Shown: piece after piece, positions 15,223 to 63,253 of the stretch
Position numbering within the stretch: the first letter of the stretch is position 1
Layout: each line of letters begins with the position of its first letter
DNA from: Opitutales bacterium
Lineage (GTDB): Bacteria > Verrucomicrobiota > Verrucomicrobiia > Opitutales > JABSRG01
Assembly (NCBI GenBank): GCA_028280845.1
Contig: JANQKZ010000053.1
Span: forward strand, 62,001-126,000
Reading direction: 5' to 3'
Length of the DNA stretch: 64,000 nt
Notes under the pieces: model-generated
Told to the model about the DNA's origin: nothing
The model's input: only the letters and a program-made list of their open reading frames with translations
The model's database searches: none
Translations under genes and position numbers: made by a program

Positions 15223-16296
15223 TTAAAGATTGGATTGAAAAGGATGTAAAGGGGTTCCCTTCGTGGGGGTTTTCCATCCCGTTTTCATGAAACTGTATGC
15301 CTTGGCGTGCTCGTGGCATTGATCCAGCAAAGCAGCACGCGACCCGAGTTTTTCCGCCATGATGTCATACTCCTTCTGGAGATTCGTATGCAGCAGGTAG
15401 GGCGCATCGGTATTCAAGCAAAACGGGATATCCTGCTCATCCAGCATAATGACCAGATCCACCAATTCATCCAGGGACTCTATCGAGTGGGTCACCATAT
15501 TGACCGTGGGGCAGAGCTCTAACAGGATCCGCCGCTCCTTCAGGATCCCGAGCAAGCGGTCTAACTGGGCGCCCTCTGCCGTCCGCAGCTGAATGCCGTG
15601 TCCGATGCGGTCGGGTTGCACGCGGTCGAGCACGCGCTCGATCCCGTCCGGCCCGGTAAGGTCGGTTTCTCCGATATGATAGGTCGTTCCCAGGCCGGCT
15701 TGCCGGGCTTTTTGATACATGGCCGCAATCTCGTTCAACCACGGCTCCAGAAATTCCTTTCGGCCACTTTCCGGGCCCGCCATGTCCAAGCCCACCACCC
15801 CAAACGCACCATGCAGGCTGCCCCGGCTTCTCCAGGCAATCGCCGCTTCCGTAATGGTCCAGTTCGCCTCCAATGAAATATCCCGCCCCAGAGACAGGAT
15901 CACGCCGGTGTTCACCTTGTAATGCATACTGGCCCGCTCGAGGCCCTGCAGGGTCGCCAGAATGATCGCTTCCAGGGTGTGCAAGCCTTCACGGACCCGT
16001 TTCACCGGGTTATACCGCAGCTCCACCCCCTCAATCCGTGCCCGTCGATAGGCTTTCGCCACCAACTGGTAGGCCGACATACTGGCCGCCGCGGGGGAAG
16101 ACTGAATCCGTTCGGTCAACCCGAAATACCGACCCAGGAAGTCGTCGAGGGAACGAATATCATGGGGATCGGCGGTCAGGGACGAATGAAACTCATCAAA
16201 GTGCTTAAATTCCGTCTGGAGACCATTGTCGCACAAAATTTCCCAGAGAACGGAGGACGGAACCGCCCCGCCTAAGTGTATATGTAAATCACGCAT
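15223..16296 (-). CDS. Adenosine deaminase-family amidohydrolase
   Basis: 357 residues of the metal-dependent ADA family. HIHLGG (His5, His7) is the N-terminal metal pair. [10 protein letters not shown] carries the third metal histidine and the catalytic-Glu position, GHGIQL the next active-site histidine, and LNTDAP the distal aspartate. The substrate may be adenosine, adenine or a related N6-type base such as aminodeoxyfutalosine, and it cannot be fixed by eye. Its ATG overlaps the gltX stop (TGATG), so it is translated with gltX, and leuC follows after 13 bp. Confidence 0.85.
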
Positions 16297-17687
16297 CAGT
16301 CAGTTGGAGTTTCCTGGGCCATGGTTTCAAGGAAACGGTCAAATCGTTTCAGGACAGCCGCCTGGCCAAGAGTCAGGATCAATTCATTAAAGCCGGGGCC
16401 TCGGTTCGTCCCACTCACCGCCAGCCGGGCCGGCTGGATAAATTCGCCGAGTGAGGCCCCATGAGTCTCCACCAGTGCGGCCACGAGGGCGTCCAGCGAA
16501 GCGGAATCCCATGACTCCAGGCTAGCCAGGCCCGCCTTGAACTCCTCGATCCGCTTCAACGGGTCTCCCTTTTTCATCACCTTTCTGGCGGCCTTTTCAT
16601 CGTAAGCAAAGTCATCCTTAAAGAAATAACTCACGAAGCCGGGAAGGTCTTCGAAGGACTGCACCTTCGGCTGGCAGATCGCCAGAATGGCCTGCAGGCG
16701 GGTTTCGTCAAAATCCTCCGAGACCAGACCCTGCTCATTCAGAATGGGCCGGGCCATCCAGGTGAAGGTCTCCAGCGGCATCGCCCGTACATACTCGGTG
16801 TTGACGAAGGACAGTTTCTTCTCATCAAACCGGGCATTCCCCTTGTTGATCCCCGGTAAATCAAACAATTCAATGATTTCGTTAATCGGGATGACTTCGC
16901 GGTCATCCTTCGGAGACCACCCCAAGAGGCATAAATAATTGCGGACGGCCTCGGGCAGGAACATCCGTTTTGCGTAATCCTCGATCAGGGCCCCCTCGTC
17001 GCGCTTACTCATTTTGCCGGGGCCGGACGATTTCAGGATAAGGGGAATGTGGGCAAAGACCGGATAGGGGTGTCCGAAGGCTTTAAACAACTCGCAGTGT
17101 TTACTCGTATTGGACAGGTGGTCTTCGCCACGAATCACATGCGTGATCCCCATCGAGATGTCATCCACGACATTGACGAAATGAAACACGGGCTCCCCGT
17201 TGGCGCGGAAGATGACAAAATCTTTCTCCTCGGCACGCTCCACACGCCCCCGCACCGCATCCTCGATCACAATCGGCTCGGCTTTGACCTTTTCGATCTC
17301 CTTCTTCAGCCGTTCATCATAGGCTGTGTAGCGCTCGCCCTCCAATTTGAACCAGATCGCCCCATCCTTTTCATAGACACGGTCCTGCTCACGCAACTTA
17401 TCCAGGTATTCCTGGTAGACAGTTCCCCGCTCACTTTGAAAATAGGGGCCAAACGCTCCGTCTTTTTCCGGGCCTTCATCCCAGTCCAGACCGAGCCAGC
17501 GCATGCCGTCGAGCAACACCTGCAGCGCTTCCTCCGTGTTGCGCTCCTTATCCGTATCTTCAATCCGCAGGACAAAGGTCCCGCCGGTATGCCGAGCATA
17601 AAGCCAGTTAAACAAAGCAGTCCGGGCACTTCCAATATGGAAAAATCCGGTTGGACTTGGCGCAAAACGTACTCTGACTTCATTCAT
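16296..17687 (-). CDS. gltX: Glutamyl-tRNA synthetase
   Basis: 463 residues, class I aminoacyl-tRNA synthetase charging tRNA-Glu (or tRNA-Gln as well if the cell uses the GatCAB route). The HIGH-type motif is HIGS (17-20) in [20 protein letters not shown], and the KMSKS-type motif is [14 protein letters not shown]. The start at 17687 gives the standard [14 protein letters not shown] opening, while a longer in-frame start at 17717 adds ten non-conserved residues. It overlaps the following gene by one base. The 70 bp to the divergent carboxypeptidase gene must hold both promoters. Confidence 0.97.
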
Positions 17688-41265: not shown

Positions 41266-42681
41266 ATGCAATCTCCAAAGAAAATTATTGGGATGGTGTT
41301 GGCTGTACTGGGCCTGCTGATCCCTATTTTGATTGATATAAACGGGCTGACCTATGCCGGAGAAATCGCCTTAGGCATCTTCTTCATGGCTGCTATTCTC
41401 TGGATTTCGGAAGCGGTCCCCATTTGGTCGACCTCGCTCCTGGTTATTTTCCTGCAGGTCCTGTTACTCTCCAATAAGAGCCTGCTCCTGAATGAGGGAA
41501 ACCTGGAGGGATTTGCTCCACCGCCCTACCAGACATTTTACAATTCGATGGCCAGTACCATCATCATCCTATTCCTGGGTGGTTTTTATTTGGCGGCGGC
41601 GGCCGTAAAATACGGCTTGGATAAGAATTTGACCCGGATGATGCTGAAACTCTTCGGGACCAGGTCCTCGAACGTAGTGCTGGGTTTGCTCATTAGTACG
41701 GCAACCCTGTCTGCCTTCATGAGTAATACGGCTACTGCGGCCATGATGATCACGGTCGTTCTCCCCATCATTGCCAATCTGAAAGCAGACGACCCCCTGC
41801 GAATCGGTGTAGCCATGGCCATTCCATGCGGTGCGAATATCGGCGGCATTGCCACCCCAATCGGCACCCCCCCGAACGCGGTTGTATTGGGCGCCCTGGC
41901 AGAACAGGGAGTTACCATATCCTTCGCCCAGTGGATGATGATCGCCGTTCCAATCGTGGTCGTCGTCCTTTTCATTACCTGGCGCGCGCTTCTGATTATC
42001 TTTCCTCCTCAAAGTAAACAGCTGGATTTATCCATCGAATCCGGGTGGAATACCTCGCCCCTGGCCATCGCCACCTATATCATCTTTGGCCTGACAGTCC
42101 TGCTCTGGGTGACAGACAAGATCCATGGAATCTCGTCCAGTATTGTTGCCTTCCTTCCGATTGCCTCGATGTCCCTCCTCGGCATTATCACTAAAGGAGA
42201 TTTAAAAACCTTCAGCTGGGATGTGCTCTGGCTCATGGCTGGTGGACTATCGCTCGGAATCTCCATGCGTTACGGGCCCGCTGAATGGCTGATTGGTCTG
42301 GTCGATTGGACGATGTTCGGCCCAGTCATCGTCGTCTGTCTGCTCGGGTTTATTGGCTACATCTTGAGCAACCTGATTTCCAACACGGTGGCCGCCACCA
42401 TCCTGGTCCCGATCGCCATAACCATGGGCATGTCGGGAGCCGTAGGGCAAACCTTCAACTGGATCCTGGCCAGCATCGTCGTCGGCATGATGGTCAGCTT
42501 CTCCATGCTGCTGCCCATTTCCACCCCGCCGAACGCGATCGCCATGAGCACGGGGATGATCGAGACAAAACACATGACCCGGATTGGAGTTGTGGTTGGC
42601 GTTGTTGGATACCTGCTCTCCATCCTTTTCGGGCTTTTTGTCTGGAAGCATTTTATCCCACCCCTCCCGGTTGCCGGCTAA
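41266..42681 (+). CDS. SLC13/DASS-family sodium:anion symporter
   Basis: 471 residues with about 11 TM spans. Both DASS substrate-binding SNT motifs are present: SNT at 153-155 (FMSNTATAAMM) and SNT at 372-374 (LISNTVAATILVPI). The two inverted repeats are separated by a short hydrophilic loop (about 240-265). Relatives such as VcINDY and SdcS import succinate, malate or other dicarboxylates, and some take sulfate, so the anion here is unknown. It begins behind the long divergent region and is followed 23 bp later by the response regulator, which may be its cotranscribed partner. Confidence 0.93.
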   Translation: MQSPKKIIGMVLAVLGLLIPILIDINGLTYAGEIALGIFFMAAILWISEAVPIWSTSLLVIFLQVLLLSNKSLLLNEGNLEGFAPPPYQTFYNSMASTIIILFLGGFYLAAAAVKYGLDKNLTRMMLKLFGTRSSNVVLGLLISTATLSAFMSNTATAAMMITVVLPIIANLKADDPLRIGVAMAIPCGANIGGIATPIGTPPNAVVLGALAEQGVTISFAQWMMIAVPIVVVVLFITWRALLIIFPPQSKQLDLSIESGWNTSPLAIATYIIFGLTVLLWVTDKIHGISSSIVAFLPIASMSLLGIITKGDLKTFSWDVLWLMAGGLSLGISMRYGPAEWLIGLVDWTMFGPVIVVCLLGFIGYILSNLISNTVAATILVPIAITMGMSGAVGQTFNWILASIVVGMMVSFSMLLPISTPPNAIAMSTGMIETKHMTRIGVVVGVVGYLLSILFGLFVWKHFIPPLPVAG

Positions 42682-44314: not shown

Positions 44315-45166
44315 CTACCCCTGCACCAGGGTCTGTTGTTGTTCCCCCAGGTGATCAATCCCCAGGCGAACGACATCGCCCTCTTTTAAATACCGCGGCG
44401 GGTTCAACCCGAGGCCAACGCCCGGAGGGGTTCCCGTGGAAATCACATCTCCGGGCTCCAGAGTCATGAACTGGCTCAAGTAGGATAGGATATGGGGGAT
44501 GTTGAAGATGAGTTCCCGGGTGTTGCCATCCTGCAAGCGTTCACCGTTCACCTCCAGCCAGAGATTCAGGTCATTGACATCCGGAATTTCATCCGGAGTG
44601 ACCAAATAGGGCCCACACGGAGCAAAAGTATCTGCCGATTTCCCTTTCACCCACTGTCCCCCGCGTTCGAGTTGCCAGGCGCGCTCGGAGTAATCGTTCA
44701 TGACCATGTATCCGGCGATACCGGCTTCGGCCTCAGCTTCCGACACACGGGAAAGGGATTTACCCACGACCACGGCAAGCTCCACTTCCCAATCCGTTTT
44801 TTCGGAGCCCGGGGGAATGACACAGTCATCATTCGGGCCACAGTAGGATGTGGTGGCCTTGAAAAAAAGGACCGGCTCGGCGGGCGGCTCCATTCCGGAC
44901 TCCCTCGCATGGTCGGCATAGTTCAGCCCGATGCAGATGATTTTGCCGGGTCGTTCTATAGGCGCCCCTATTCGAACATCGGGGGGAATCTCAGGTGCCT
45001 GGTCACCCGCTTGCTCCACCCACTGTTCGAGTGTATGGAAGCCGTCCTGGCTGAAAAAATCACCGTTGTAGGTAGAGCACGCCGGACTGGCGTCTACCAT
45101 CTTTCCATTCTTTAAAAGAACACCGGGCTTTTCTTGCCCGGCGGGGCCATATCGGAATAGTTTCAT
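44315..45166 (-). CDS. Fumarylacetoacetate hydrolase-family protein
   Basis: 283 residues. The C-terminal FAH fold carries the metal triad Glu127, Glu129 (DWEVELAVV) and Asp158 (MVMNDYSERAWQ), with IGLNYADHARESG at the entry. The family contains 2,4-diketo-3-deoxy-L-fuconate hydrolase, ureidoglycolate lyase and acylpyruvases, which split or hydrolyse beta-diketo acids. The gene is last in the symporter-sulfatase-isomerase operon, which makes cleavage of a diketo-deoxy sugar acid the best guess. A 34-bp gap separates it from the isomerase gene. Confidence 0.85.
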   Translation of the reverse strand: MKLFRYGPAGQEKPGVLLKNGKMVDASPACSTYNGDFFSQDGFHTLEQWVEQAGDQAPEIPPDVRIGAPIERPGKIICIGLNYADHARESGMEPPAEPVLFFKATTSYCGPNDDCVIPPGSEKTDWEVELAVVVGKSLSRVSEAEAEAGIAGYMVMNDYSERAWQLERGGQWVKGKSADTFAPCGPYLVTPDEIPDVNDLNLWLEVNGERLQDGNTRELIFNIPHILSYLSQFMTLEPGDVISTGTPPGVGLGLNPPRYLKEGDVVRLGIDHLGEQQQTLVQG

Positions 45167-45200
45167 ATGTTATCGTAGGGGTTGAGGAGTTGTTAAAGGT

Positions 45201-46025
45201 CTAGAGTTCAAGCCACTCATGGGCAACCAGAGCTTGCAACGCAGAATCGAGAGCCGGCAGATACGGGTGCCAGGCTTTCTCCCACTCGAGGGAGACCGGT
45301 ATCGATACCGTTTCCCCTTCTAGGCGTTCGATCAGAGGACCAAGTGGAAATTCACCCTCTCCCGGCAGAACATAGGTGTGGGGATGGTTCGCCGAGGGCT
45401 CACTGATACTGTCCTTCACATGGATATGGACGATGTGGCGCTTGAAAGCCTCCCAGGTCTGGACCGGATCTTCTCCGGAATGCTTCCAGGTATGGTGGGA
45501 GTCCCACAACAAGGCGGGCGCCACAGGCACCGATTCGAAAAGTTGCGCGATAGTTTGCGGATAGCAGAGACAGTCATGGGTTTCGATCATGATATCCACG
45601 GACCACCCCTGCTCCGCGCGGAGGCACTGCCACCAGTTCAATGAACTTCGTAGGTCATTTAAAGTTTCCACGTCCAATGTGCTGGAGATGCCTCCCCCAT
45701 CAAAAACCCGGAGCCATCGGACACCGAGGGCCTCGGCCCATGGGATAAATTGCAGAAAGGCTTCCCGGTCCCCGGGAGATGCTCCGACCAGCTTCAAGCT
45801 GGTATCCAGGCTGACCACCCTCTGGTCGAATCGCCTTAATTCATCGGCGACCCCTTGAGGATCGCCATAACGCGCTTCCAGAACGGCGATTGGATCCATG
45901 CTGCCTTCCAGAGCTCGAATTTCTATGCTTTTCATTTCATAGCGTGCGGCCAGTCGAAGCGCCGCCTTCAAGCTTGCATCCGGGCATCCCAAGGTGCTGA
46001 AAGTCCATGCGAGTTTGTGTGACAT
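45201..46025 (-). CDS. TIM-barrel sugar isomerase/epimerase-like protein
   Basis: 274 residues of the xylose-isomerase-like TIM barrel (AP_endonuc_2) family. Candidate metal ligands follow the strand ends: a Glu in MIETHDC, Asp in LLWDSHHTW, a His in VHIHVKDS and a Glu in VSLEWEKAW. It probably isomerises or epimerises a sugar or sugar acid. It sits between the sulfatase (34 bp before) and the FAH-family hydrolase (34 bp after) in one operon. Confidence 0.8.
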   Translation of the reverse strand: MSHKLAWTFSTLGCPDASLKAALRLAARYEMKSIEIRALEGSMDPIAVLEARYGDPQGVADELRRFDQRVVSLDTSLKLVGASPGDREAFLQFIPWAEALGVRWLRVFDGGGISSTLDVETLNDLRSSLNWWQCLRAEQGWSVDIMIETHDCLCYPQTIAQLFESVPVAPALLWDSHHTWKHSGEDPVQTWEAFKRHIVHIHVKDSISEPSANHPHTYVLPGEGEFPLGPLIERLEGETVSIPVSLEWEKAWHPYLPALDSALQALVAHEWLEL

Positions 46026-46059
46026 CGGGTATAGGGGTTAAGGCAATCAGGGTTCGGGG

Positions 46060-47484
46060 CTAGCGTGCGTTTCGATCAAAATCCAGCCAGTCTCCATGGG
46101 CCAGGTGCCAGGCCTTGCACCATTCATGGTGCTGGGTCATTGCTTTTGCGCTGTCTGGATCCATGGACAGGTTGTTCATCTCAAAGGGATCTTTCTCCAA
46201 GTCATAGAATTCCGGAATATCCTCCGGATCAAAAACATACTTGTAGCGTTGCGTAACAACCCCACGCCTGAAGTAGCCGTAGCCAATCTGTCCGGAGAAT
46301 TGAAAATACTGGGGTTCATCCGGAAGTGTGGCTTCCCCGCTCAATAAGGGAACTAGAGACCGGCCGTCCATGGCATCAGGCACCTCGAGGCCAGCCAGAT
46401 CCAGCAGTGTGGGAGCGACATCCAGATGACTGCACAGCCCCCCGTGGCTACCGGAATGCCCTCCGGGCAGCCGTGCGATCATGGGAACGTGCACCGTCTG
46501 CTCATAGAGCTCATTGATGCCAAACATCCGGTGACTGCCCAAGTGGTGCCCATGATCGCTGGTAAAGAGCACCAGCGTGTTGTCGTCCAGTCCCAGAGCT
46601 TCCAGCTTATCCAGGACGCGCCCAAAGCAATCGTCGGCCACACCGAGTAGGGCCAGGTGCGCCGCCCAGGCATTCCGCATATCCAGTTCGGAGGCAGAGC
46701 GGGCGAGCTGGCGAGCGACGGAACGGTCACGGTTTGCCGGTTCCCCCTCGGCGGGCTGCCCGAGATACGGGGGCAGTTCCAGGGTTTCTGGCGTATACCA
46801 GGAATTGAAGGGCTCCGGGACGACTAACGGCGGGTGTGGAGATGGAATGGAGAAAAACGCGGCAAAGGGCTGGTTGCTTTTAATGGCTGACTCCAGCCAG
46901 GTTTCCATTTGATCCGTAAAGTAGTAATCCCGAAATGATGCTTTGGAGCCCTCCCAGGTGCCGGTTGCAGGATGCGAGTAGCGGCTGGGATTGACCCGAT
47001 CCGGGAGGACTTCCTCCACATCCTTATAGTAATAATCCAGAAAGGCCGCCTCCCGCCCTTCCCATCCCGGATGCGCCGGTAGCCCCTCAGCCTGTAACCA
47101 GGCTTCGTAATCTTCTTTGTCCAGCCAGGTCGAGTGCGGGTGCTGGTCTCTTCCCGTCGGCCGGACCCGGATATCATTTTTCCCGATGTAGCCCACATGG
47201 TAACCCGCTTGTTCCAGATAGACCGTGGCCAGGCTCTGCTCCCGGGCTTCCTTCCCGCTGAAGTCATTGATGGGGATCCCCCTCGTGGGATAGTGCCCGG
47301 TAGCCATGGCCGTTCTGGCCGGAATGCAGAGGGGGGAGGTGGTGTAGGCACGTGTAAAGACCATGGCATCCCTGGAAAACTGGTTGAGCCGAGGCATCAC
47401 TTCTCGACCGCCCTGAACCATGTCGAGGCTGTCGAAGCGCTGGTGATCGGTGATCACGACTAGAATATTCGGTCTCGAGTTCAT
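46060..47484 (-). CDS. Formylglycine-type sulfatase without signal peptide
   Basis: 474 residues. The sulfatase signature CxPxR is at Cys53 (SPLCIPARTAMATGHYP), with the cysteine to be converted to formylglycine. The N-terminal metal aspartate is in VVITDHQRFDSLD, and the distal metal site is in FTSDHGHHLGSH. The protein starts MNSRPNILVV with no signal peptide, so unlike most bacterial sulfatases it should act in the cytoplasm. The ATG overlaps the symporter stop as ATGA. It likely removes sulfate from a sugar imported by that symporter. The maturase is not in the window. Confidence 0.9.
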   Translation of the reverse strand: MNSRPNILVVITDHQRFDSLDMVQGGREVMPRLNQFSRDAMVFTRAYTTSPLCIPARTAMATGHYPTRGIPINDFSGKEAREQSLATVYLEQAGYHVGYIGKNDIRVRPTGRDQHPHSTWLDKEDYEAWLQAEGLPAHPGWEGREAAFLDYYYKDVEEVLPDRVNPSRYSHPATGTWEGSKASFRDYYFTDQMETWLESAIKSNQPFAAFFSIPSPHPPLVVPEPFNSWYTPETLELPPYLGQPAEGEPANRDRSVARQLARSASELDMRNAWAAHLALLGVADDCFGRVLDKLEALGLDDNTLVLFTSDHGHHLGSHRMFGINELYEQTVHVPMIARLPGGHSGSHGGLCSHLDVAPTLLDLAGLEVPDAMDGRSLVPLLSGEATLPDEPQYFQFSGQIGYGYFRRGVVTQRYKYVFDPEDIPEFYDLEKDPFEMNNLSMDPDSAKAMTQHHEWCKAWHLAHGDWLDFDRNAR

Positions 47485-49283
47485 GGTAATCGGGATGAGA
47501 ATGGCGTTGAGGATGTCACGGATCGGCGCCCAATTCTATTCATAACAAAACCGGCGCCCCCGATAAACGAGCCCACCAGGATGATGCCCCATCGCCCATC
47601 CAGTGTCCATGGGTTATCCACCATGAGGAGTAGCAGAATACCGCCTCCAATCACCATGAGGAAGGTTCCGATTATGGTCATCTGGAGCTCGTCATTGGCC
47701 TCACCCACTTCGTTCTTGAAATCAATGGGCCTGTGCATCGTTTTGAAAAAGGATGCTGCCTGCTCTTTGTAAGTCGCCGAAGTCTTCGCCCAAAACAGGG
47801 TCGATAGCAGGAAGGTACTTACACTGACCGCCCCATTAACAAACACGATCGTTTGAAACTTCCAGGGCTCAGCCAGGATAGGCAGAGCATCCGCCAGCCA
47901 CGGAACATTGCCGGCCATGGCCGCCATGCTGGAGGGGATGGCCGTCACACCGATACTGAAAAGGGCCGCCCAGCCGGGAACTTTGCGGATGAGCAACCCC
48001 ATGAGCATGGGGACCGCCATCGGCATCCCGAGGATCGCTCCAACCTGAAGCATGAAATCAAAGACTCCTGCCCCTTCCTGCATCGAGAGGTACAAGGCGA
48101 TGATGATAATACTCATTCCGAGAAGCAGGGTCCAGGCCTGCCCCAGGCGCATCAGCTTTTTTCCTTCAAGGGCGGGTTTCCCCAGGATCCGGCAGACCTG
48201 AGGATAAATGTTCAGGGTAAAGATGGCGGCGTTCCGATTCAGCCCGGTATCGAGATTGGACATCGTAGCGGCAAACATGGCGACCACCATGAGTGCCGCC
48301 ATCCCGGCGGGTAACACCTCCATCGCAGCGACCGCATAAGCCGATTCTGCCGGGTTGGACAAGTTCATCGCCAGCACCTGTTGGTCGTAGAGGAGCCGAG
48401 CCGTGATCGGAGGAATAAACCAGAACAGCAGACCAACGGTCGACAGCGTGCAATCCAGGATTGCTGCCTTGCGCGCTTCCCGGCCATCTTTCACCGCAAA
48501 ATAGCGAACCGCCGTGATCAGCGACATTTGGTTCGGAATGTTCTTCACCAGGATGGCGATAGCCCAGGCTATCGTAAAATCCGATACCCGGTCCTGAAAT
48601 TCCACCGTATTGAACATCCGAAAATCCTGCGATAAGCCTGCGGCCTGTATCCCCTGAAACAGCGCCCCTAAGCCCCCAATCTCGCGTAAACACAGGAAGC
48701 AGACAAACAGGGTGATCGGCACCAGGATCAGCCCCTGGACAAAGTCGGTCCCCATCACCGCCCAGCTCCCCCCAAAGAAGGAATACGTCAGCACGATGAG
48801 GCCTATCCCCACGATAACCCACTGAATATCCAGCCCGAACACCGCTGAGCTGAAAATGGCCAGGCCATAGAGCTGGATAGACGATATCAGCAAGTTATTC
48901 AGGATTCCGAAATAGCTGTAGAACTGCTCGGTGGATCCCCCGAACCGGCGACGTAAGACTTCCGGCGCGGTCACGGCCCGTATCTGGCGAAATTTGTCCG
49001 CGAAAAAGAGGGCGGTCATCAAAGCCGTGAGCGGAGCTATCATGTAGATCACCATCACACTCCAGCCTGCGGTGAAGGCTACGCCCGCCGCTCCCGTAAA
49101 GGTCCATGCCGTATAGTTGGCAACAAAGGCACTGGTTCCCACCAGCCACCAGGTTCCCTTACATCCATTCCGGAAATAATCATCCACATTGCGATTTAAC
49201 CGCCGGAAAACGAAAGCCAGCCCAATCAAAACACCAAAGTACAAGACCACCACGAGGGCCTCAATGGGGAGAGTGGACGACAT
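47481..49283 (-). CDS. Sodium:solute symporter (SSS family)
   Basis: About 600 residues from the ATG at 49283 (a Met at 49307 adds eight residues). Roughly 14 TM spans in the SSS/SGLT pattern: SAFVANYTAWTFTGAAG, the inverted-repeat core and FGGSWAVMGTDFVQGLI. Family members use Na+ to bring in sugars, sugar acids, amino acids or other carboxylates. It is first in the minus-strand operon and overlaps the sulfatase gene by 4 bp, so uptake and desulfation are probably linked. Confidence 0.9.
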   Translation of the reverse strand: MSSTLPIEALVVVLYFGVLIGLAFVFRRLNRNVDDYFRNGCKGTWWLVGTSAFVANYTAWTFTGAAGVAFTAGWSVMVIYMIAPLTALMTALFFADKFRQIRAVTAPEVLRRRFGGSTEQFYSYFGILNNLLISSIQLYGLAIFSSAVFGLDIQWVIVGIGLIVLTYSFFGGSWAVMGTDFVQGLILVPITLFVCFLCLREIGGLGALFQGIQAAGLSQDFRMFNTVEFQDRVSDFTIAWAIAILVKNIPNQMSLITAVRYFAVKDGREARKAAILDCTLSTVGLLFWFIPPITARLLYDQQVLAMNLSNPAESAYAVAAMEVLPAGMAALMVVAMFAATMSNLDTGLNRNAAIFTLNIYPQVCRILGKPALEGKKLMRLGQAWTLLLGMSIIIIALYLSMQEGAGVFDFMLQVGAILGMPMAVPMLMGLLIRKVPGWAALFSIGVTAIPSSMAAMAGNVPWLADALPILAEPWKFQTIVFVNGAVSVSTFLLSTLFWAKTSATYKEQAASFFKTMHRPIDFKNEVGEANDELQMTIIGTFLMVIGGGILLLLMVDNPWTLDGRWGIILVGSFIGGAGFVMNRIGRRSVTSSTPFSSRLP

Positions 49284-49398
49284 ACTCAGGTCGTTATTAC
49301 CGACCATAAGCCGAATGCGGAGGGTGCTTTCAGTTTACGGAAAGATGAATACCTGGTCTCAAACCAATGGATGAGTAATGAGTGTATCCGCCATCCGT

Positions 49399-50265
49399 CT
49401 ATCCCATTTCGGGCCCAGCCGATGCGAAATGCCGGGACAGGACCTCCATCTTCGGCAGGGGCCGAGGACCTTTAATCAGGCGCCGGAACCCGCGTTCCCG
49501 GATGAACCCATAGCCTTCGAGCCAGCCGGTCCAATTCTTCTGATGAGCAAACGCGTCGATAAGGAACGGACCTGGGAGGGAAGCCATTGCCACCTGCAAT
49601 AGCTCACGCGCGATGGTCACATCCTCAGCAATCAGGGGCCCAAGATGAGTTGCGAGTGACCCGGGCCGCCCAAATATTATACCACGCGGGGTCTGGTCCG
49701 AACCAACGGCTTTCCAGGCTAATCCGGGTCCTTGCTGCTGCAGGTAAGCCAAGAGGGCCTCGCGCAACCAACCGGATCTATCCTGACAAAGCGTAGATAA
49801 GGCCCCGATTTCAGCCGCTTGGATTGGCTCCAGAATATAACCCGCATCCAACACCTGCTCTTGCGTGAGGCCTGCTTGCAGGACGTAACGCGACAGCAGG
49901 ATGTCCCCGGAAAACCCAAGGTGGCCATACACCGCTTCGCCTGCCGGAGTGGCATCCAGGCAGGGGGATGCGCCCCTGGATTCCAACCAGGCAATGGCTT
50001 CGCTCATCAACGAGGTGGCCAATCCTCGTCGGCGATAGTCCGGATCGGTTAAAACCATGCTGATCCATCCGGAGTGTCCACTCCATTGGGAGGCGATTGC
50101 ACTGGCCACCAATCGCCCGTCAGTCCGGTAATATCCCCATCCACTGCCACTCCTGATTAAATATCGCCAATCGTCGACGGTCTGGTTCCAACCCGCCAGG
50201 CAGGACAGGCGGAGGCCCTGTTCCGCATCGGCGGGGATAATAGGCTGAAGGGTTAACACACCCAT
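49399..50265 (-). CDS. GNAT acetyltransferase-type protein with C-terminal second domain
   Basis: 288 residues. The first half is a GNAT domain with the acetyl-CoA loop in LTDPDYRRRGLATSLMSEAI and a GEAVYGHLGFSGD end. The second half resembles a further GNAT-like domain (ILEPIQAAEIGALSTLCQDRSG onward, ending GFIRERGFRRLIKGP), as in the YitH/HsdM-type two-domain group. The substrate is unknown. The gene is isolated, 115 bp before the symporter gene start, and is divergent from the enolase-superfamily gene. Confidence 0.8.
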   Translation of the reverse strand: MGVLTLQPIIPADAEQGLRLSCLAGWNQTVDDWRYLIRSGSGWGYYRTDGRLVASAIASQWSGHSGWISMVLTDPDYRRRGLATSLMSEAIAWLESRGASPCLDATPAGEAVYGHLGFSGDILLSRYVLQAGLTQEQVLDAGYILEPIQAAEIGALSTLCQDRSGWLREALLAYLQQQGPGLAWKAVGSDQTPRGIIFGRPGSLATHLGPLIAEDVTIARELLQVAMASLPGPFLIDAFAHQKNWTGWLEGYGFIRERGFRRLIKGPRPLPKMEVLSRHFASAGPEMG

Positions 50266-50386: not shown

Positions 50387-51583
50387 ATGAAAATTTCAAA
50401 TATCAAACTCTACACCATTAAGACCGGGGATACCGGCGCCCGCGGGGCAGCCATGGGTGAATCCCAGTACTGGGGCGGGGGTTGGCAGGCCCAGACCCTG
50501 ATCGCCAACCCCATGTCCGTTTATCCGGAATACGCCCGTGTCCGCTCCCTGTGGATGGGGCCCGGACAAGATCCCTTCGCCATTGAAATCGAAACCGATG
50601 ACGGGGCCTCCGGCTTTGCCGTGAACTACGGGGGCGGTGAGTTTGCCTGTTCCATTATCGAAAAGCATTTTAAACGGTTCCTCATCGGGCAGGACCCGTT
50701 TGATATAGAAAAATTCTGGGACCAGATGAACCGCTCCACCATGCCTTACGGGTTGGGCGGCACCGTTCAGATGGCCATCGCCGGGGTCGATCTCGCCCTC
50801 TTTGATCTGGTGGCCAAAGTCCTCAATGTGCCGGTTTATAAAATGCTGGGTGGTCAGACGAAAGCCAACATTCCCTGCTATGCCACGATCCATCCGGACT
50901 TTGCCGATTCCTGGAAGGACCGCGGCTTCCTCGGTGTCAAAATTGCCGCGCCCTGGGGCGTGGAAAGCGGTCGCGATGGGATCCGCAACATGGAAAAACT
51001 CCTCATCAAGCTTCGGGAAGACCTTGGGGATGATATGGAAATCATGGTCGACTGCTATTTAGCCTGGGATATCGAGTTTACCCACCGCGTAGCCGAACGG
51101 GTCCGTGACCTCGATATCAAGTGGTTCGAGGATCCGCTCCAGAATGGGTGGGCGACCGACGCCAACCAACGCCTCCGGGAACGCATTGCCCCCATTCAGC
51201 TGGCCACCGGCAACCTGGAGTATCACTACAAAGCCTTTCATGACATCATTCGCAGTGAGGCGACTGATATTATTCAGCCGGAAATCCAGTGGGCGGGTGG
51301 ATTGACCGCCACCCGGCGCATCGCGGCCATGGCCAAGCCCTACGACATGCCGGTCATTCCCCATGGAGCGTCGGTCTACAATTACCACTTTGTCATGTCC
51401 AATACCAACTCCCCCTACGCGGAGTACCTGACCGTTGGCGAGGGACGGGACATCCAGCCCATCTTCGATACCATTATTGGCGAACCGCTCCCGGAAAATG
51501 GCCGCATCACCCTGGACCCGGACAAACCCGGTTTCGGCGTGGAACTGAACCGAGAGAAGCTGGAGCTGTTTCCAAGTGGATAA
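50387..51583 (+). CDS. Enolase-superfamily dehydratase, L-rhamnonate dehydratase-like
   Basis: 398 residues of the mandelate-racemase subgroup. Metal ligands Asp222 (MVDCYLAWD) and Glu248 (KWFEDPL) are in place, as is the catalytic histidine His326 in IPHGASVYNYH. The C-terminal DKPGFGVELNRE and the WAGGLT segment are close to E. coli RhmD as remembered. The third ligand position, usually Glu in a GE pair, reads GNLEYH here (Asn276, Glu278), so coordination or substrate may differ. It likely dehydrates a C6 deoxy-sugar acid to a 2-keto-3-deoxy acid. It stands alone and divergent from the GNAT gene. Confidence 0.85.
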   Translation: MKISNIKLYTIKTGDTGARGAAMGESQYWGGGWQAQTLIANPMSVYPEYARVRSLWMGPGQDPFAIEIETDDGASGFAVNYGGGEFACSIIEKHFKRFLIGQDPFDIEKFWDQMNRSTMPYGLGGTVQMAIAGVDLALFDLVAKVLNVPVYKMLGGQTKANIPCYATIHPDFADSWKDRGFLGVKIAAPWGVESGRDGIRNMEKLLIKLREDLGDDMEIMVDCYLAWDIEFTHRVAERVRDLDIKWFEDPLQNGWATDANQRLRERIAPIQLATGNLEYHYKAFHDIIRSEATDIIQPEIQWAGGLTATRRIAAMAKPYDMPVIPHGASVYNYHFVMSNTNSPYAEYLTVGEGRDIQPIFDTIIGEPLPENGRITLDPDKPGFGVELNREKLELFPSG

Positions 51584-55774: not shown

Positions 55775-57073
55775 TCACCGCGACTCCATTCCAATGGCCT
55801 CCGGTAAGGTGGAGACCGAGTCACTCACCCACTTCGCCTTGAAGTCGGTGTAACCCGACACGTCTTCCTCACGCGCCGAAACAGCCCAGGGGGCTCCGAC
55901 TTCCAGAAATGACTTTCGCTCGGTAAAGGACTTGAGGGCGAAATACTCAAGGTCTTCCACCGAGACAAAGATGTCTTCATTTTCATCAAGTAGAGACAAT
56001 TGATACTTTGAATCCGGCTCACAAATGGGAGCCACATCCTGGATCGCATTGATCCATTTCACTGTCCCCTTAGCCATTTCCGCGGTGCAGATCCGGGCCG
56101 GTTTCCCGACGATAAACTCGGCCACCGCCTTGAACATCACCGACCGTAAATTCAACAGATCTTGGGTCTCCAGATACTCCGTTTTCCCATCGACAGTGAT
56201 CATTGTCTTGTTTTGGAAGCGCCAACGTACGACTCCCTTGCTTCCGGTAATCCGAATCTCCGGTTCGATGCTGTTGCGCGAACTATGGCTCAAAATTACG
56301 GCAGCTTTCAGGCCGGTATCAAATTGGGCCTCGGTGCGGACTGTGTCGTAGCTTTCTATAGGCTTAAACCGGTACAGCTCCGCGGATACCTTGTGCAGAT
56401 CCGCACTTTTACCGAGTTCAGGGCCACACCAAAAGAGGATGAGATTAATGATATGAGAAAGCGCGTTGTGGATCGGTGAATCCAGGATCCAAGAGTATCC
56501 GTCGTGTAACTTACCGGCCCAGTTATTCCGTTGGTAGTAGCTCTGCGGCCGTGGCCAGAGGCCGATGCAATCCACTTGCTCCACCTCGCCTATGGTCCCG
56601 TTTAAAATACATTCTTTAATATTCCAGACATCCTCCTGATACAGATATTGAAAACCCACACAGACCGGGTGCTTATACTTCTCTTCCGCTTGTTGGATGA
56701 TCCGGACATCCTGCAAGGTGGGCGCGAGTGGTTTTTCCACCAGGACCGGCAAGCCCACCTTCAAGCAGTCCACTGTCATTTGGGTATGCCAGCCTATTCC
56801 GGTTGGAATGCATACCCAATCCATTTTTTCTGCAGCCAGCATTTGCTCATAAGCCGGATAAACAGGAATCCCCTGTTGCTTAAAAAACGCCATCTGTTCC
56901 GGGGCTTCATCAGGGTTGATCACCGTTGCCCCAGCCCATTCCGCTATTCCCATGTCGACCAACTCATTCAGATTGGTGTAGTGGGCTAGACCATACCCGG
57001 TCACACCAATGAGCCCGAAACGGAGCGGGAGTTTTCTGCGGGCGTGAAAGGTAGGGTCTAACGTAAGTGCCAT
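55775..57073 (-). CDS. Gfo/Idh/MocA-family oxidoreductase
   Basis: 432 residues. The N-terminal Rossmann start is FGLIGVTGYGLAHYTNL, with the diagnostic EKPLAPTLQD loop and a downstream HSSRNSIEPEIRITGSKG sheet. The family oxidises sugars, inositols and sugar acids with NAD(P). A C-terminal extension of about 60 residues is present. It is the first gene of its operon, preceded by a promoter candidate at 57129-57156, and the two MDR genes follow at 9 and 19 bp. Confidence 0.88.
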   Translation of the reverse strand: MALTLDPTFHARRKLPLRFGLIGVTGYGLAHYTNLNELVDMGIAEWAGATVINPDEAPEQMAFFKQQGIPVYPAYEQMLAAEKMDWVCIPTGIGWHTQMTVDCLKVGLPVLVEKPLAPTLQDVRIIQQAEEKYKHPVCVGFQYLYQEDVWNIKECILNGTIGEVEQVDCIGLWPRPQSYYQRNNWAGKLHDGYSWILDSPIHNALSHIINLILFWCGPELGKSADLHKVSAELYRFKPIESYDTVRTEAQFDTGLKAAVILSHSSRNSIEPEIRITGSKGVVRWRFQNKTMITVDGKTEYLETQDLLNLRSVMFKAVAEFIVGKPARICTAEMAKGTVKWINAIQDVAPICEPDSKYQLSLLDENEDIFVSVEDLEYFALKSFTERKSFLEVGAPWAVSAREEDVSGYTDFKAKWVSDSVSTLPEAIGMESR

Positions 57074-60330: not shown

Positions 60331-62418
60331 TCAAATCTTGACCCGAAGTGCAGTGCCTTCACCCGGATTTTCGGTAAGCAGGTATCCGGAGTCTACCTTG
60401 ACCGAATAGCGACCCATATGCGTATCAATCCGGTAGCCGTCCTCCATCACATGCCAGGGGGTACCCCGGTCATGTAGCGTGGTCAGGGCAAATAAACTGA
60501 GCAGGCGGCATTGATCCCCCCGAGTGGTCATATTCACAAAAGGTTCATGGCGTTGTTCCAGGAGGTTGCCATCCCTGTCCTTATCGTAGGGGGCTCGATA
60601 CTCCTGACGACCCAGATTGAATTCAAGCACCTGCCTATCCAACGCGACCACCCTGGCCGATAATCCGGCAGTTTCATTAGTTACGAAAAAGGATCCGTCT
60701 TCCCGAAGGACCGGTACGAAGCGGGTATGCCAACGCAGGCTGATATCGTCCGGTTTCACCAAGGTGGCCTCGTCCAGAACCACGCACAGGCCTGGAAACA
60801 GGTGAATGACCGTCCGCCGGACTTCCCTGGCACCGTCATACGCGTTCCGCAGGTCAATCTGCCAATACCCTCCCCGCTTATCGTCGAACTCAGTATCCAG
60901 ATAGCGCCCGCCAAAAGAATCCCAATCCACAGCTCCCTTCACCCCCCGATCCTGTGGAGGATGGCGCTGTTCACGACCTCCAAACATGAGGACATTATGT
61001 CCTCGAGTGGAAGCGTTATAATATTCATATCGTGCATCGTCGAAAAAGTCGGGCGGATAGCTGGAGGGTGAACCGGGGTCGAGAATGAGGCGCTGAGCGA
61101 ATCCATCGATACAGACCTGACCGACATCGTTGTGGCCATGGTTGTGGTCGCGCTTGATTTTGCCATAAACAGCCATGGCGCAGACCTCGTGGTCCCAACT
61201 GGTCCGGCTGGTAACTTGCGCCCCATTGCCTCGAAAGGCTTTGCCCAGGGGATATGCGCCCGTGGCCGGTCGGGTGGACAAATCTCCATCCAGTGAAAGC
61301 AGGATGTAGGGATTAGCGCTCGCCTTGAGATGATATTGCACAAAATCCTGCAAGATCGGGTCCTGTGTGGCCGAAGCAATAGCCGCCATGTACTCCACTT
61401 GTGGAGGCGCATCGGCATGACCATCTCCAAAGGCGGCAAATCGCCCCGGGGGCAGGGTCATATACAAGGTCCAGGCTGCTGTCTGCGGGAAGGGCCGTTC
61501 GGCCAGGGGGTTCTCTCCCCCCGCCCGATGGTAGTAATAGGCATAGAAATAATTGACCGGAATCCGGGTCGCGTTGGCGTAAGCGATAGATTCGTTAAAC
61601 TCCCCCTCCTCTCCATAAATCGATAGATATTCGATCATCTTCCGGTGAGAGATCTCCACCAGGCGGGACGCATCCGGATGGTCATCGGCCAAAGCCATTC
61701 CGGCCACGCCCAGGCCGCCGATAATGACCGAATACCAATTGTTCATATCGTGCCACCACCAGGGATCCTGATCCATGCTGATCAGGAAAGGCTGCACCCC
61801 GCGACGGTCCAAGCCTTCCACAATCCATGCCTTTTCTTTTGTATCCATAAATGGATACAACCAATCATAGGCCAGGCCACAGTCCTGCGCCAACATCCCC
61901 GTCCGCAGATCGACCGGATGCCCAAACCGGGTATGGGCCTGATCAATCCAGTCCGGCCAGACCGCTTCATCAAACAGGGCCGCCATCTGCTCCAGGGCGG
62001 TGGCTTTATGCCGCTCATCCTCGGTAATCAGCATAGCCAGCGCGTGCCTGAGGATTCGCTGTCCGGCCGCGCGGCAAATGGTGTAGTCTGGGTTATTGTT
62101 GTGGGCCGCAGCCATATACCTGCCGGGGAATACAGAACGGCAATCCAGGGGAGACGCGCCGAATTCTGCGGAGCACTCTGCCTGGAGTTGTTTCCAGATC
62201 TTGCGGTGCATGCCTGTCTCAATCGACTGCCGGAGGGCGTCCACCGTTCGCAGGGTCCCCCTTACATTCCGCCGGATAAAGAGGTGGGGTCGCGTCTCGA
62301 CAACCGGCCCTGCTCCAGCCCTGAGCACATGGGGCAGGACCAGTCCGCCCAATCCGATACGCTGAAGGGCTTCTCTCCGGGTCAAGGCCCGCGACCAGGA
62401 CGGATCAGGCAAGCCCAT
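60331..62418 (-). CDS. Heparinase II/III-like protein with Tat-type signal
   Basis: 695 residues from the ATG at 62418. The start TRREALQRIGLGGL has a twin-arginine (R14, R15) export motif with a following hydrophobic stretch. The body is an alpha-helical toroid (GLAYDWLYPFMDTKEK region) followed by the heparinase II/III beta domain with KRDHNHGHNDVGQVCIDG and ILDPGS. These lyases or hydrolases act on uronic-acid-containing polysaccharides such as alginate, heparin or ulvan-like chains. The start overlaps the upstream gene by 14 bp. The substrate is unknown. Confidence 0.85.
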   Translation of the reverse strand: MGLPDPSWSRALTRREALQRIGLGGLVLPHVLRAGAGPVVETRPHLFIRRNVRGTLRTVDALRQSIETGMHRKIWKQLQAECSAEFGASPLDCRSVFPGRYMAAAHNNNPDYTICRAAGQRILRHALAMLITEDERHKATALEQMAALFDEAVWPDWIDQAHTRFGHPVDLRTGMLAQDCGLAYDWLYPFMDTKEKAWIVEGLDRRGVQPFLISMDQDPWWWHDMNNWYSVIIGGLGVAGMALADDHPDASRLVEISHRKMIEYLSIYGEEGEFNESIAYANATRIPVNYFYAYYYHRAGGENPLAERPFPQTAAWTLYMTLPPGRFAAFGDGHADAPPQVEYMAAIASATQDPILQDFVQYHLKASANPYILLSLDGDLSTRPATGAYPLGKAFRGNGAQVTSRTSWDHEVCAMAVYGKIKRDHNHGHNDVGQVCIDGFAQRLILDPGSPSSYPPDFFDDARYEYYNASTRGHNVLMFGGREQRHPPQDRGVKGAVDWDSFGGRYLDTEFDDKRGGYWQIDLRNAYDGAREVRRTVIHLFPGLCVVLDEATLVKPDDISLRWHTRFVPVLREDGSFFVTNETAGLSARVVALDRQVLEFNLGRQEYRAPYDKDRDGNLLEQRHEPFVNMTTRGDQCRLLSLFALTTLHDRGTPWHVMEDGYRIDTHMGRYSVKVDSGYLLTENPGEGTALRVKI

Positions 62419-63253
62419 ACTCTTTCTGTTTAGCTCGAATAAAGGTGGCTCCCTCACGCAGCAGCGTATCCCCGTCAGGGGCAAGCTGTCGCCATACCCA
62501 GGTGTTCATATTATCTGTCGTGTCGACAAAGCTCTCCAGGGCGGCGTATCCGTCGTAATCCAGTTCAGCCAGGGCTCGAAAAATTCCATCCCAATCAACC
62601 TGCCCTGTTCCCGGAATCCCGCGATCATTCTCGCAGAGATGATAATGGATTAAGTGATCCCCGGCCTGCTTGGTCGCCGCATAAAAGTCCTTTTCTTCGA
62701 TGTTCATGTGATAGGTGTCGAGGTGCACTTTCACATTATCGTGATCGATCATCGCCTTCAACCTAAGCGCCTGTTCGCAGGTATTTACCAGAAAGGTCTC
62801 ATAACGGTTGACCGGCTCCAGGCCAATCTTCACCCCAAGGTCGGCTCCCAGCTCTGCGGCCGCGCGCAACCGCTCGGCGGACCATTCGTAATACTGCTCG
62901 GTCGGCCGATTCGGAAGCGTCCGGATATGCTGGGAGTAGATAACGCCGGAAAAGCTCTCGCCTCCGATAGCTGCGGTGGCCCGCACACAGGCTTCCAGAT
63001 AGTCCTGACCCTTTTGACGAATAGCCGGGTCCGCACTCGTGATATCCGTATCGCCCAGCAGCACCGTCGAGGTGACCGCCGGAATACCCACCGCGTCCAG
63101 CCGTGCTTTGACCGCCTCCGCATCAAAGGTGTCAAGGACCATGAGGGGGATTTCGATAAAGTCGAGACCAAGCTCTTTTACCCGATCGATCAAGTCCAGG
63201 GTGTCATTGCTCCACTGGGAGCACCAGGCGTAGGCGTGTATTCCAAGTTTCAT
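62405..63253 (-). CDS. D-tagatose/D-psicose 3-epimerase-like protein
   Basis: 282 residues of the TIM-barrel DTEase group. The four metal ligands match in order: Glu146 (GLEPVNRYE), Asp179 (LDTYHMN), His205 (YHLCENDRG) and Glu240 (ALESF). The motif GTGQVDWDG is also typical. It would epimerise a ketose (tagatose, psicose or similar) at C-3. Tightly packed: one base after the upstream gene's stop and overlapping the heparinase-like gene by 14 bp. Confidence 0.88.
   Translation of the reverse strand: MKLGIHAYAWCSQWSNDTLDLIDRVKELGLDFIEIPLMVLDTFDAEAVKARLDAVGIPAVTSTVLLGDTDITSADPAIRQKGQDYLEACVRATAAIGGESFSGVIYSQHIRTLPNRPTEQYYEWSAERLRAAAELGADLGVKIGLEPVNRYETFLVNTCEQALRLKAMIDHDNVKVHLDTYHMNIEEKDFYAATKQAGDHLIHYHLCENDRGIPGTGQVDWDGIFRALAELDYDGYAALESFVDTTDNMNTWVWRQLAPDGDTLLREGATFIRAKQKEYGLA

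Follow-up and report, generated by a model that had tools for sequence, protein, structure and literature searches.

A sodium symporter encoded with a non-exported sulfatase-family hydrolase in an Opitutales bacterium: a candidate route for desulfation after import

Sulfated algal sugars hold a large amount of carbon that is broken down only slowly, and models of this process usually locate desulfation outside the cytoplasm. Could a bacterium instead take up the sulfated molecule intact and desulfate it internally? The question is raised by a 64,000-nucleotide stretch of contig JANQKZ010000053.1 from an Opitutales bacterium (assembly GCA_028280845.1), hereafter the window. Four minus-strand genes in it follow one another in the operon order symporter, sulfatase, TIM barrel, FAH-family hydrolase. 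A first-pass annotation read them as an operon for the uptake, internal desulfation, isomerisation and diketo-hydrolysis of a sulfated sugar or sugar acid.

The four-gene operon is real. Its first gene encodes an SSF sodium:solute symporter (47481-49307; PF00474, 6e-41) of 608 amino acids from a start at 49307, or of 600 from the ATG at 49283 that the first-pass annotation chose. The symporter stop is overlapped by 4 bp by the start of a formylglycine-type, signal-less sulfatase-family hydrolase of 474 amino acids (46060-47484; PF00884, 1.5e-42, and PF16347, SGSH_C). An AP_endonuc_2 or xylose-isomerase-like TIM barrel of 274 amino acids (45201-46025; PF01261, 2.6e-13) lies 34 bp further on, and after another 34 bp comes an FAH-family, LRA6/FucG-like hydrolase of 283 amino acids (44315-45166; PF01557, FAA_hydrolase, 7e-72). 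All four Pfam matches exceed their curated cut-offs. The tight packing described in the first-pass annotation is thus confirmed by the coordinates, the shared strand and the families.

The sulfatase-family hydrolase is not exported. Translation can start no earlier than the ATG at 47484, and since the PF00884 domain extends from residue 5 onward, a signal peptide would not fit; the earlier claim that the export signal is missing is borne out.

To place this feature in context, the genome (4.79 Mb in 62 contigs) was searched for PF00884. There are 103 matches, and after split matches were merged the N-termini of 97 sulfatase genes could be read. Signals were called by hydropathy and start codons, without SignalP, and borderline cases by eye. 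A hydrophobic signal stretch is absent from 11 of the 97, including the operon sulfatase, and present in 86, a figure that includes two proteins with twin-arginine-like signals, treated here as exported. The contrast that had been drawn with the usual periplasmic sulfatases therefore holds for the location of the enzyme, but the trait is not unique, as about one sulfatase in nine shares it here.

Signal-less sulfatases in this genome are commonly found beside transporters. A transporter neighbour was defined as a same-strand gene within 150 bp whose protein has at least five hydrophobic segments. Such a neighbour accompanies 7 of the 11 signal-less and 3 of the 86 signal-bearing sulfatases (Fisher p = 2.7e-6), the seven being four SSF symporters and three major facilitator superfamily (MFS) proteins. 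Counting SSF neighbours alone gives 4/11 versus 0/86 (p = 9.5e-5). Because the operon itself suggested the test and the SSF neighbours were known beforehand, the fairer values are those that leave the operon out: 6/10 versus 3/86 for all transporters (p = 1.7e-5) and 3/10 versus 0/86 for SSF (p = 8.4e-4). The habit of pairing non-exported sulfatases with transporters is thus statistically supported. Since six further places in the genome combine an inner-membrane transporter with a non-exported sulfatase, the pairing appears to be a recurrent strategy and not an isolated case.

These other modules differ in their composition. At L052 (1183-4314) a LacI-type regulator lies upstream of a signal-less sulfatase and a YidK-family symporter downstream (637 bits, cut-off 401); the same locus has a receptor divergent from a sulfatase and an MFS_1 protein. 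L064 (1-3878) encodes an iron-containing alcohol dehydrogenase (Fe-ADH), a signal-less sulfatase and an SSF symporter with a 4-bp overlap, and this trio recurs in G007, a genome from another family of the order (L109/L196; L196, 247-4397). L157 combines a LacI-type regulator, a sulfatase and an MFS protein. TonB-type receptors adjoin some of the modules, and at L066 the SSF symporter and sulfatase adjoin a plug-domain-like protein that scores just below the Pfam cut-off. The signal-less sulfatase of that pair (15615-16970) appears altered at both the N-terminal metal aspartate and the GKxH motif, and may not be a sulfatase. A plug-domain receptor, an MFS_2 protein and two successive signal-less sulfatases form one run across L050 (12419-18868) and L051 (1141-2634), a candidate for a second, fuller version of import followed by desulfation.

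A single clade of sulfatase-linked symporters was considered and is ruled out by the symporter tree. The linked symporters are scattered over it, requiring 5 changes, and 108 of 500 shuffles are as low. This scatter suggests that symporter and sulfatase were paired on several separate occasions.

A similar arrangement can be found in E. coli K-12, where an SSF gene, yidK, is followed on the same strand by a signal-less sulfatase gene, yidJ, with a 4-bp overlap. YidJ begins MKRPNFLFVMTD and, like the operon sulfatase, lacks a signal. Both products are putative (an SSF transporter and a sulfatase). The sulfatases of the two systems are just 25% identical, however, and there is no TIM-barrel or FAH gene at yidKJ. 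The L052 locus, with its true YidK-family symporter, is close to yidKJ in kind, whereas the operon symporter scores 120 bits against the YidK equivalog NF007790 (cut-off 401). Taken together, the transporter statistics and the yidK-yidJ layout make uptake of an intact ester and its hydrolysis in the cytosol a well-supported design. Other sulfatase-rich PVC (Planctomycetes, Verrucomicrobia, Chlamydiae) bacteria, such as Pontiella, have exported polysaccharide sulfatases (PMC7356697). The genome studied here resembles theirs in its PF00884 superfamily and in a similar richness, about 100 genes, but the operon enzyme departs from that type in having no signal, though most of its genomic paralogues carry one.

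What, then, does the enzyme hydrolyse? By its sequence it belongs to the formylglycine-dependent sulfatase family, and a sulfate is the probable ester. The formylglycine motif, C53-I-P-A-R57, fits C-x-P/A-x-R and is invariant in alignments A2 and A3. Residues of the metal site and of ester binding are kept (D13, H217, D310-H311 and K415, from alignment A2 and PDB alignments), as is K102 in alignment A2. A gene for an anaerobic Cys-type sulfatase maturase is present on contig C52 (TIGR03942, 490 bits, cut-off 349).

The nature of the substrate can be approached through the other proteins of the operon. The symporter scores 161 bits against TIGR00813 (cut-off 184), and its nearest solved structure is 5nv9 (SiaT, a sialic acid transporter), with the glucose symporters SGLT and vSGLT next. 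The best PDB match of the FAH-family protein is 8gsr, an L-2,4-diketo-3-deoxyrhamnonate hydrolase (E = 3.8e-79), a resemblance pointing to a 6-deoxysugar-acid-like carbon chain. The relatives of both proteins together favour a sugar or sugar acid. The "diketo" label of the first-pass annotation agrees with the family and the best match, but the diketo substrate itself follows from that match only, and the protein falls below the LRA6/FucG equivalog cut-off (NF053535, 350 bits against 500).

The TIM barrel is harder to name. Its invariant residues E148, D175, H202 and E247 (alignment A1) presumably form a metal site, and an AlphaFold2 model has a predicted local distance difference test score (pLDDT) of 95.9. 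The top fold match is the 3-dehydroshikimate (3-DHS) dehydratase AsbF (3dx5, VIA-align Z 25.2), with Art22, IolI, IolE, UlaE and others among the matches. Naming the protein by fold was rejected, as the matches cover the whole superfamily. Its "isomerase" label is sound for the family (PF01261) and too specific for the protein, which could be any metal-dependent isomerase, epimerase or dehydratase. Relatives occur in 37 of the 177 genomes of the order, and in those listed no sulfatase neighbours are evident beside them.

Close relatives of the FAH protein are found in 15 of the 177 genomes, this one counted, and at the same threshold there is no second copy here. In the order, homologous FAH genes adjoin UxaA-like or enolase-type dehydratases, short-chain dehydrogenases/reductases (SDRs), an amidohydrolase and a permease; G061 and G030 have the dehydratase and SDR dehydrogenase together. 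Judged by its genes, this neighbourhood is of the non-phosphorylative rhamnose/fucose type. The LRA6/FucG reaction, the last step of that route, yields pyruvate and L-lactate (PMC11199699). The operon recalls the route in its FAH best match, in a dehydratase-like gene next door, although a diverged one, and in an SDR encoded at a distance, on contig C31, which is 48% identical to an SDR beside a homologous FAH gene. It differs in that the cluster contains neither a lactonase nor the 4-dehydrogenase required before the FAH step, in the altered residues of the dehydratase, and in having a symporter and a sulfatase instead. The dehydratase-like gene, divergently transcribed from the plus strand (50387-51583), encodes an enolase-superfamily (MR/MLE) protein similar to L-rhamnonate dehydratase (PDB 3fxg, 1.4e-81; NF011968, 323 bits, cut-off 393), and is a candidate pathway gene.

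These observations can be assembled into a mechanism. A small anionic derivative of a sugar would enter through the sodium symporter; the likeliest candidates are a sulfated 6-deoxyhexose and the sugar acid derived from it. The sulfatase-family enzyme would hydrolyse the ester in the cytosol, and the metal-dependent TIM-barrel enzyme would rearrange or dehydrate the carbon skeleton. Cleavage of a 2,4-diketo-3-deoxy acid by the FAH-family protein would come last and give pyruvate plus a small hydroxy acid, which would be L-lactate if the chain is rhamnose- or fucose-like. That the substrate is a sugar, that its ester is a sulfate and that the steps take this order is what we infer. The chances that the operon imports a sulfated sugar derivative, desulfates it in the cytosol and feeds diketo-acid cleavage are about even. 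Of the corresponding claim in the first-pass annotation, import followed by internal hydrolysis agrees with the transporter pairing of non-exported sulfatases, with yidKJ and with the trio of SSF, sulfatase and Fe-ADH, and the 5nv9 and 8gsr matches fit a sugar acid; the sulfate and the sugar stay tentative, given the active site and fold comparison described below.

Several findings weigh against this mechanism. In place of the GKxH motif of most type I sulfatases the enzyme has G101-K102-N103-D104, with Asp replacing His, and the two closest sulfatase relatives (43-44% identity) carry GVHH at this site. These relatives were recovered in searches that scored the top candidates per genome only; the other operon genes are not in the available flanking DNA, and no SSF or FAH gene lies beside either relative, one of which is on a 3.2-kb contig. 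The operon as a whole was not recovered, with the same scoring, in 103 relatives (E 1e-100), 388 genomes of the phylum, named genomes or plasmids. The enolase-superfamily protein has GNLE for GEHE and QPE for QPD relative to its canonical G061 homologue, changes at three active-site positions. Finally, G007 has just three signal-less sulfatases among 105, and the transporter link there (1/3 versus 4/102, p = 0.14) runs in the same direction with too few cases.

The change from GKxH to GKND also means that phosphonate and phosphate esters are conceivable substrates. The enzyme might be a cytosolic phosphonate monoester hydrolase, or a phosphate mono- or diester hydrolase, acting on a sugar or polyol that enters the cell with a phosphonate or phosphate group, with no sulfate involved. 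The phosphonate monoester hydrolases 4upk, 2w8s and 2vqr share its fold and formylglycine-type motif, and tie with sulfatases in sequence (4upk, 1.3e-35). In 4upk, GYTDT aligns to GKNDI of the operon enzyme, in which the GKxH histidine is gone. Fold comparison was tried as a means of telling the two groups apart and does not do so, as the top Z values tie: 2w8s reaches 38.1, and sulfatases 38.7 and 38.5. The model used for this comparison is modest in quality (pLDDT 75.7). Yet GKND is not GYTD, and the score against the PehA model NF045661 (151 bits) lies far under its cut-off of 900 and below the scores for arylsulfatase (177 bits) and choline sulfatase (161 bits). The sulfatase-typical K102, H217 and K415 are retained and sulfatase genes abound in the genome, so hydrolysis of a phosphonate or phosphate ester is considered rather unlikely.

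Two further explanations keep the sulfate. Cytosolic choline sulfatases exist, and the sulfate ester hydrolysed could be something other than a sugar: a choline-O-sulfate-like, aryl or alkyl sulfate. The operon would then have brought unrelated salvage genes together by chance; its gene set was indeed not found in relatives. This is unlikely: the 161 bits against the choline-sulfatase model TIGR03417 compare with a cut-off of 433, the relatives of FAH and the symporter indicate sugar acids, and the genes are tightly spaced and overlap. Less probable still, the four genes might cooperate with the sulfate kept until after cleavage, FAH freeing a hydroxy acid that still bears the sulfate, for the sulfatase to remove in the last step. 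Sequence does not fix the order of steps, and the FAH family in relatives functions without an adjoining cytosolic sulfatase, but the FAH and dehydratase active sites would need room for the sulfate. A search of the open-access literature for cytoplasmic sulfatases with symporters, or for yidJ and yidK, returned no match, which is no evidence of absence.

The surroundings of the operon contain other genes of possible relevance. A GNAT acetyltransferase gene (49399-50265, minus strand, PF00583) lies 91 bp upstream of the symporter and may be the first gene of the transcript. In the enolase-superfamily protein, Asn and Leu replace Glu-His and Glu replaces Asp, so it possibly catalyses a different reaction. 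About 1.6 kb past the operon end, on the opposite strand, is a DASS-family sodium:anion symporter (41266-42681) that could move sulfate or dicarboxylates. Further away, a DUF4962/heparinase II/III-like protein (60331-62484) adjoins a second AP_endonuc_2 protein (62405-63253); with Gfo/Idh and zinc dehydrogenases near 55775-57073, these genes form another patch of sugar-acid catabolism within the window.

Beyond this one operon, some sulfatase-rich bacteria may have a distinct route in which import comes first and desulfation follows inside. It would have been built independently several times from SSF or MFS transporters and signal-less sulfatases, in places linked to TonB-type receptors, and would run parallel to the export-and-desulfate route, with the operon as its diketo-acid-cleavage version. 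This broader proposal is tentative, its chances falling a little short of even. If the repeated module does work in this way, some bacteria import sulfated monomers intact and so retain both the carbon and the sulfate. A function would also be suggested for pairs like E. coli yidKJ, and a signal-less sulfatase beside a transporter would serve as a genomic signature for finding the route.

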